DNA of 64,000 nucleotides from an uncultured Candidatus Actinomarina sp. (GTDB lineage: Bacteria; Actinomycetota; Acidimicrobiia; Actinomarinales; Actinomarinaceae), in the NCBI GenBank assembly GCA_902596545.1, contig CACJUH010000002.1, positions 1 to 64,000 on the forward strand, written 5' to 3'. Below are positions 32,139-34,161 of this stretch, in pieces. Within the stretch, counting starts at the first letter, position 1. Each line of letters starts with the position of its first letter. Both the position numbers and the translations under genes were made by a program. The notes beneath the pieces are model-generated. The model saw nothing but the letters and a program-made list of their open reading frames with translations. It did no database searches and had not been told where the DNA came from.

Positions 32139-32540
32139 ATGGAAGATAAAACTTGGGGTACATTACCCACACCAAAGATATACATTGAACTCCAAGGAGA
32201 GTTTATTGATTTTAATAAAGAAGAAGAGTATCTTGTTTGTAAATTTCCAGTTCAATCCAAATATTTTAATCCAATGGATACAACGTTAGGTGGGATTATC
32301 GACTCATACATGGATGTAACAATGGGCCCCTTAAGTTGGCTTTTGGGAGAAAGGGTAGTTACAAAATCTTTTTCAGCAAAATACATAAGACCTGTTACAG
32401 CAAATTATAAATATGTTACTGCAAAAGCATGGAGGGAGTCAGTTTCGGAAAAAGGATCGATTTATAAAGCTGAACTTCACTTAGATACTGATGAATTAGC
32501 CGCAGTTTCTGAGGGGCTTTTTGTTCAACCAAAAAATTAA
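32139..32540 (+). CDS. PaaI-like hot-dog thioesterase
   Basis: A 133-residue single hot-dog domain. The MDTTLGGIIDSYMDVTMGPLSW segment corresponds to the central helix with the conserved G-G-hh-hhxD catalytic pattern of PaaI/YbgC-type acyl-CoA thioesterases. VVTKSFSAKYIRPVTANYKYVTAKAW matches the following two strands. The substrate is unknown. The stop overlaps the convergent DMT transporter stop in a shared TTAA. Confidence 0.72.
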   Translation: MEDKTWGTLPTPKIYIELQGEFIDFNKEEEYLVCKFPVQSKYFNPMDTTLGGIIDSYMDVTMGPLSWLLGERVVTKSFSAKYIRPVTANYKYVTAKAWRESVSEKGSIYKAELHLDTDELAAVSEGLFVQPKN

Positions 32541-33391
32541 TTTTTAATTTTTGAAAACCTGTAAGCGGACAATATGACAATAACGATACCAACAAGTTGA
32601 ACATTATTTGTGTACTCGTTAAGAAAAACAAAACCAAAAATTGTAGAAAAAATTGGAATTATGTAAACAGTAATTGATCCTGCCACTGCTCCCACATCAT
32701 TAATTAAATTGTAAAAGGACACAAAAGCAATTCCGCTACTACCAATCCCTAATAATAAGATTGGGAATAATGAATCTGAAATACTAGGCAATACAATATC
32801 TGAATTAGGTAACAACATAATAAATGAAAACAACGTTGCATATCTTAAAGAAATTTTTAATGTTGGAATTGCCCCATAATCTTTTATTAACGGTTGAACT
32901 ATATTTGCAGCAAATCCATAGCTAATTGATGCAATTAAAGCCAACAATGCACCGATGTTCAGATCATTTAAAAAGTTATTCAATCCAAAGGAAACGAGAT
33001 AAATTCCAATAAATCCTAGACCCAAATAAAACTTTTGCATTCTTGTTATATTTTCTTTATAAATTAATACGGCAATTAATCCAATAAATATTGGAGTAGA
33101 GCCATTAATTAAACCAGCTAAGCTAGAGGAAATAGTTTCTTCAGCCTTTGCAAATAAATAAAAAGGTAAAGCCATCCAAAGCATTCCAATTGATGCTAAA
33201 TTCTTATGAGTATTTTTTGGGAAAGGAGTCTTTTTAAAAAAAATAATATTTATAAAAATCATACCAATAAGAATTCTGTAGAAGGAAATCTGAAAAGGAT
33301 TTAAGTCAACTAATGCATATTTCATCATTAAAAAAGAAGATCCCCAAAGTGCTGAGGTTAAAAGCATTTGAAGATAATTTACAATTTTCAA
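32537..33391 (-). CDS. EamA/DMT-family transporter
   Basis: A 284-residue protein with ten predicted membrane helices in two EamA repeats. The first repeat shows the family's SALWGSSFLMMKYAL and ISFYRILIGMI blocks, the second PLIKDYGAIPTLKISLRYATLF. The DMT family exports amino acids, nucleosides or other metabolites; the substrate cannot be told. The start is TTG 33391, seven bases after AGGA. A structured RNA candidate lies immediately upstream (33420-33482) and may regulate this gene. Confidence 0.8.
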   Translation of the reverse strand: MKIVNYLQMLLTSALWGSSFLMMKYALVDLNPFQISFYRILIGMIFINIIFFKKTPFPKNTHKNLASIGMLWMALPFYLFAKAEETISSSLAGLINGSTPIFIGLIAVLIYKENITRMQKFYLGLGFIGIYLVSFGLNNFLNDLNIGALLALIASISYGFAANIVQPLIKDYGAIPTLKISLRYATLFSFIMLLPNSDIVLPSISDSLFPILLLGIGSSGIAFVSFYNLINDVGAVAGSITVYIIPIFSTIFGFVFLNEYTNNVQLVGIVIVILSAYRFSKIKN

Positions 33392-33406
33392 TTAAAAATC
33401 CTTATT

Positions 33407-33482
33407 AAAAAAAACAATAGAGCCACCATCCAACAGGGTAGAAGGATTAGTGTAGTGGTTCAAACTGACACAAAGGCGACTC
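33407..33482 (-). ncRNA. Candidate structured leader RNA or attenuator upstream of the EamA gene
   Basis: Read on the - strand from 33482, an 8-base closing helix (GAGTCGCC with GGTGGCTC at 33427-33420) is complete if two G-U pairs are allowed; on the + strand those two positions would be mismatches. Inside it are two arms: GTGTCAGT/ACTACAC with one bulged base and a 7-base loop, and ATCC/GGAT with a 12-base loop. TATTG and a run of eight T (33414-33407) follow, then AGGA and the TTG of the transporter gene. This three-way junction plus U-tract resembles a riboswitch/attenuator, or a pgl terminator. I do not recognise a known class. Confidence 0.45.
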
Positions 33483-33501
33483 TGATTTAATTATATTGAG
33501 T

Positions 33502-34161
33502 TTATATTTTTTGGTCCGTTACAAGGACAGTTTTTTTTCGATGTTTTATTAACTGATTTACAGGTAATCCATTATCCTTACCAATTTCTTTCAAAATATC
33601 AGACTTATTTTCTCCAGTTACTAAGAGGTATACATTTTCAATATTAGAAAGTAATTCAAAAGTTGATGTAATTCTCCATTTGCTTAATATATTTACTTCA
33701 TTTGCAACAAATCCAATTGATTTATTATTCATTGCAGTTGTATTTGGAAATAGAGAAGCTATGTGACCATCATCACCAACTCCAAGAATTGCGCTATTAA
33801 AATTTTGAATATTTGACAATACTAATTTTGAATATTCGTCTGCTGACATGTTTGGATTTTCATTAAATTGTAATTCTAAAATTTTCATTTTTGTTTTACT
33901 AAATATTTCATTTATCATTCTTTGATTAGAAATTTCATCGTTTATAGGAACATGTCTATCATCTATTGTCCATAAAGAAATATCACTATTTTCTTGATAA
34001 GTATTTGCAAAGTTTTGATAGAAAAATCTTGGTGTACTTCCGCCTGACAACCCTAAACTAAATTTTTCATTATCCTGTATAAATTTGCCAATCAACTCTT
34101 GAAGCCTTAAAGATGCATCTTCATGACTGTTTTCTTTTATTATCTCAAGTGAATCAAACAT
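33502..34161 (-). CDS. pgl: 6-phosphogluconolactonase
   Basis: Hydrolyses 6-phosphogluconolactone in the oxidative pentose phosphate pathway. The 219 residues have LSGGSTPRFFYQ, the TIDDRHVP motif and GVGDDGHIASLFP, all characteristic of the Pgl/NagB fold. No zwf or gnd is in the window. The gene is divergent from murA, with 35 bases between their starts. Confidence 0.93.
   Translation of the reverse strand: MFDSLEIIKENSHEDASLRLQELIGKFIQDNEKFSLGLSGGSTPRFFYQNFANTYQENSDISLWTIDDRHVPINDEISNQRMINEIFSKTKMKILELQFNENPNMSADEYSKLVLSNIQNFNSAILGVGDDGHIASLFPNTTAMNNKSIGFVANEVNILSKWRITSTFELLSNIENVYLLVTGENKSDILKEIGKDNGLPVNQLIKHRKKTVLVTDQKI

Follow-up and report, generated by a model that had tools for sequence, protein, structure and literature searches.

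The purine riboswitch family forms a three-way junction in which a P1 closing helix is joined to two hairpin arms with conserved loops. The RNA described here comes from Candidatus Actinomarina, tiny and abundant ocean bacteria known mainly through environmental genomes, and it likewise has a three-way junction, a P1 helix and two arms with conserved loops. In contrast to the purine riboswitches, its L2 and L3 loops are both C-rich, which makes a G-C kissing pair impossible, the lineage of our sequence has no J3/1 segment, and no Rfam match is found. A second comparison is with the glycine riboswitch of SAR11, which has a sequence and architecture other than those of the Actinomarina RNA and whose host, unlike Actinomarina, is an alphaproteobacterium. 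PMC5069720 presents it as a cis-regulatory RNA of a streamlined ocean bacterium with a transcript that begins directly at P1, and the two RNAs are alike in having a streamlined ocean host and a start at P1, which is predicted in the Actinomarina case. The ykkC subtype 2d RNAs are an orphan riboswitch class found ahead of EamA and TauE transporters, according to PMC7266159, and they resemble the Actinomarina RNA in being structured leaders ahead of an EamA-annotated gene. However, no ykkC-family model matches the Actinomarina RNA, which is a small three-way junction confined to one genus as far as searched.

The window analysed is a 64,000-nucleotide stretch of DNA from a Candidatus Actinomarina-type genome of 1,097,906 bases in 17 contigs. 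The RNA occupies part of the 110 nt that separate pgl from an EamA gene; both of these genes are on the minus strand, with plus-strand genes to either side (Table 1). The best NCBIfam matches of the EamA gene fall under their cut-offs, and comparing the transporter with solved structures gave no match. The pgl product scores 113.5 bits against TIGR01198, for which the cut-off is 124.45. Downstream of EamA on the opposite strand is a 133-aa open reading frame (32139-32540, +) that has no Pfam match and is conserved with 57-100% identity across all loci compared. A related-locus search of genome contigs gave one locus only (97% identical), and the named relative found is AG-447-L16, whose EamA is 97% identical to that of the window.

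Table 1. Features of the leader RNA and its neighbours, with positions counted from the first letter of the window
Feature	Position	Strand	Basis
EamA/DMT-family transporter gene, TTG start (33391-33389)	32537..33391	-	PF00892, E 1.3e-39
AAGGA Shine-Dalgarno-like sequence	33399..33403	-	sequence
U8 tract	33407..33414	-	sequence; not conserved in relatives
P1 3' strand GGUGGCUCU, pairs with 33483-33475	33419..33427	-	fold and covariation
P3 3' strand GGAU, abuts P1 directly	33428..33431	-	fold
L3 loop UACCCU, within invariant CUACCCUGUUGG	33435..33440	-	sequence and alignment
P3 5' strand AUCC; inner C-G pair 33441/33434 closes the arm further	33444..33447	-	fold
P2 3' strand ACU ACAC	33450..33456	-	fold
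L2 loop UUGAACC	33457..33463	-	sequence and alignment
P2 5' strand GUGU, bulged C, AGU	33464..33471	-	fold
P1 5' strand AGAGUCGCC; transcription predicted to start at its opening bases	33475..33483	-	fold and covariation
TATAAT, a -10-like box; predicted to be part of the leader RNA's promoter	33490..33495	-	sequence
pgl, probable 6-phosphogluconolactonase, upstream neighbour of the RNA	33502..34161	-	PF01182, 4.7e-39

Folding and comparison both confirm the original prediction of a three-way junction on the minus strand of this gap. The RNA spans 65 bases (33419-33483), and its P1 helix encloses arms P2 and P3. Eight closing pairs had been claimed; the helix is present, and an outer A-U pair brings it to nine. 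The two P1 pairs that are not Watson-Crick are U-G and G-U wobbles that hold on the minus strand only, just as had been proposed, which fixes the strand as minus. P2 consists of four and three pairs around a bulge, with one additional base between the ACU and ACAC parts of its 3' strand in lineages E1b and E2, and P3 consists of four pairs plus the inner C-G pair. Within L2, UGAACC is invariant and the first base of the loop is U or C.

The fold energy of the window sequence is unremarkable (z -1.68; 9 of 200 shuffles fold equally well or better), so the case for the RNA rests on comparison. Standard pairs fill 99.7% of the 329 cells examined in 16 distinct sequences, versus 28-54% when the partners are slid. 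Pair counts from alignments A3 and A4 lean toward the structure, since both had been adjusted to the covariance model. The covariation score of the same 16 sequences (0.165) is reached by none of 500 shuffles (mean 0.113). Two P1 pairs have changed on both sides, one among A-U, G-C and U-A and the other between U-A and C-G with a U-G intermediate. Three more P1 pairs vary one-sidedly through wobbles, and all P1-variant cells but one are standard on the minus strand. These are the compensatory changes that homologues had been expected to show. One P3 pair has a two-sided change in a single sequence. All seven pairs of P2 are invariant, and this arm is consequently supported by its invariance and not by covariation. 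Since shuffles of this kind can be outscored by related sequences and the alignment is model-fitted, the comparative support for P1 pairing is good but not absolute. Together with the invariant loops, the compensatory changes in P1 agree with the earlier description of the junction as aptamer-like.

The RNA also matches no Rfam family, in keeping with the earlier suspicion that it is of no recognised class. At gathering score, the 4227 families of Rfam 15 match only three tRNAs in the window. A search of the gap alone at E<=10 returned only mir-500 (13.5 bits versus 78), which is a chance match, and five loci of other lineages gave two weak matches at E<=5, neither of them at the element. Among the papers listed on Actinomarina and Actinomarinales, EamA riboswitches and riboswitch candidates, no title or abstract shown describes it, though an ncRNA track in a figure of PMC7771536 may already annotate it.

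Covariance models were built from nine sequences (R1) and from 26 sequences (R2), and the large searches used the stricter filters of Infernal; their E-values are rough. R2 matches 32 of 42 Candidatus Actinomarina genomes with one copy each (74-99 bits). The identical 32 are the matches among 395 genomes sampled from the class, where no other genus has one, and in a sample of 396 genomes from the phylum only the genome of the window and one 24.7-bit sequence match. There is thus no convincing R2 match outside the genus in the class and phylum samples. Viral contigs gave no homologues, and phages and plasmids each yielded a single weak one (E 1 and 0.3), neither convincing. As far as these searches extend, the RNA is known from one locus per genome in one genus, and not before several genes or in distant taxa.

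Several weaker matches were considered and set aside. R2 gave 16.9-bit matches in two further genomes of the genus (E 0.3-0.5) that were not counted, and two additional matches from R1 (27 and 16.7 bits) were lost with R2 at E<=1. We rejected second genomic copies because the three additional matches that were read resemble chance by eye. The 24.7-bit match (G537:C4:1720) is a long palindrome and was taken as chance. G015:C2:151879 (27 bits) contains CUACCC and lacks the conserved L2 motif, which is also missing from G061:C5:21319 (16.9 bits), and both look like chance by eye. Further weak matches occur at G004:C18 (16.7 bits) and in G065 (16.9 bits).

At all 31 loci read, the RNA is flanked by pgl and EamA; these represent 31 of the 32 matching genomes, since G031 was counted in the searches and its locus was left out. 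Seven genomes of a single clade (support 95-100 on three trees) keep the pgl-EamA arrangement and lack the RNA according to model searches, with empty gaps read at L066, L068 and L069. The transporter consequently does not need the RNA. Three genomes with no pgl match (G018, G026 and G034) were excluded from these seven, and pgl is on the minus strand in loci L064, L065, L067 and L070. The RNA was not seen beside pgl alone, but this refuting condition had no case to act on, because none of the loci read has pgl without EamA.

Identity of the RNA core is 81-95% across lineages and 97-99% inside a lineage. For the sequence immediately to either side the values drop to 48-70% and 71-88%, respectively, and the shuffle baseline for aligned identity is 57%; the identity comparison and the trees hold genome G024 twice (L021 and L061). 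Spacers are short in the highly streamlined genomes of Actinomarina (median 2-3 bp in two genomes tabulated in PMC7771536), so a 110-bp gap that holds an 81-99%-identical RNA is under strong selection. The elements fall into three types (E1a, E1b and E2) that follow the pgl and murA trees, and the two types of EamA are about 50% identical to each other. EamA-2 is found behind E2 elements and, in seven genomes, also behind E1a elements. These seven are dispersed over the pgl and murA trees, which require five changes (starred branches force four or more of them), but they form a single group on the EamA tree. The transporter was thus exchanged repeatedly, and the RNA stayed. By eye, the exchange breakpoint is just 3' of the RNA. 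At L023, L024, L026, L028, L029, L030 and L036, EamA and the neighbouring 133-aa frame are swapped for a diverged allele, and pgl and murA are retained.

A TAnAnT hexamer is situated 6-8 nt ahead of the GAG of P1 in all 28 distinct leaders (27 identified by script and L014 by eye), with the variants TATAAT, TATACT, TAGAGT, TAAAGT, TAAACT and TAGACT. No clear -35 element is apparent by eye. The placement of this -10-like box suggests that transcription probably starts at the 5' edge of P1, in which case the RNA would form the beginning of the transcript. The first start codon occurs 13-33 nt past P1 (25 nt in L002 and 29 nt in L013, by eye), and an SD-like sequence is absent by eye from 8 of the 28 leaders. 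In the window, AAGGA is complementary to UCCUU of the RNA (33446-33442), a potential pairing noted by eye. An SD-complementary UCCUU occurs in the E1 lineages and not in E2, and for L010 a pairing of this kind is predicted as the minimum-energy fold.

Loci of the EamA-2 lineage (L020-L030, L036, L057, L059 and L060) carry an upstream ORF of nine codons (e.g. ATGTTAAGCTTCAAAGCCTGTGAATTTTAA) between the RNA and EamA that overlaps the GTG or ATG start of the transporter, an arrangement that by eye looks like translational coupling. The version at L019 stops after four codons. At L022, GGAGCC of P1 can pair with GGCUCC in codons 3-4 of the upstream ORF, and this alternative is the predicted minimum-energy structure of the leader.

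The leader had been drawn as a junction followed by a U-tract, a ribosome site and a TTG start, and all of these are present in the window. The U8 tract is not conserved, which bears on whether the element might be the intrinsic terminator of pgl or a transcription attenuator. The uridines after P1 in the window and the runs of at least five T within 14 nt of P1 in 11 of 28 distinct leaders are what such a function would leave. However, 17 leaders have no such run, including the closest relative, L002 (EamA 97% identical), the four bases AUUG intervene between P1 and U8 in the window itself, and the loops are conserved far beyond what a terminator needs. No terminator is conserved here, and the attenuator part of the original prediction now seems very improbable. 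A short conserved coding sequence has even less to recommend it. By eye, TTG-started frames do cross part of the element, but one-base insertions between lineages shift the frame in the most conserved part, which already refutes this reading, and the variation is pair-compensating.

A trans-acting sRNA with its own promoter, whose position between pgl and EamA is incidental and which targets other mRNAs with its C-rich L2 and L3 as seeds, would explain the -10-like box, the inheritance of the element type with the upstream side rather than with the EamA allele, and the complementarity of the invariant loops to G-rich ribosome sites. We judge it quite unlikely, because no terminator is conserved 3' of the RNA, the RNA always adjoins the transporter gene at the loci read, and complements of the loops are not enriched across 42 genomes. 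In this test, which is a weak one, L3 has 133 complementary sites (32 of them the element itself, by the R2 count) versus 185 for the reversed control, and L2 has 285 versus 376. It is also unlikely that the RNA is a leader without a sensor, whether its structure at the 5' end serves to stabilise the mRNA, to hold the start region open or to bind a protein. The predicted transcription start at P1, the variable expression platforms and the leaders without an SD in some lineages agree with such a role. A pure stabiliser needs no invariant loops, however, and L2, L3 and P2 remain constant across lineages whose flanks have diverged.

The explanation that we consider reasonably probable is a cis-acting structured 5' leader of the EamA mRNA that senses a signal via L2 and L3 and acts on translation. 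The RNA stays ahead of the transporter gene even where the EamA allele differs. That it acts as a metabolite riboswitch, which would be a new class restricted to Actinomarina in which a compact three-way-junction aptamer forms the extreme 5' end of the transporter mRNA, is a more tentative proposal, somewhat short of an even chance. A riboswitch is expected to be a conserved, structured RNA within the leader of a metabolism or transport gene, and this RNA is one if, as we infer, it is cotranscribed with EamA. Transcription from the 5' edge of P1 would put the RNA at the head of the transporter mRNA. The invariant L2 and L3 loops and the U-rich J1/2 might then recognise a small molecule or, with lower likelihood, a protein or tRNA. 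Recognition could stabilise P1 with P3 stacked on it, and this would alter ribosome access to the start region downstream. In the window, the ligand-free RNA could pair AAUCCUU with the SD region AAGGAUU in a possible off-state. Bound ligand would in that case turn translation on, as expected of an exporter that is induced by its substrate. The riboswitch would sense the substrate of the EamA exporter itself and would have been retained through several exchanges of transporter alleles. Switching is the weakest step of this scheme, since the putative alternative pairing differs among lineages. Several observations count against the favoured explanation: one clade keeps pgl-EamA and lacks the RNA, P2 has no covariation in its favour, no single expression platform is conserved (spacing, SD and U-run all vary), and the type of element tracks pgl rather than the allele of EamA.

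Should the RNA prove to be a riboswitch, it would reveal the cellular signal to which this EamA transporter responds and would extend the known classes by one that surveys of culturable genomes overlook. With the alignment and a natural clade from which the RNA is absent, its role is directly testable.
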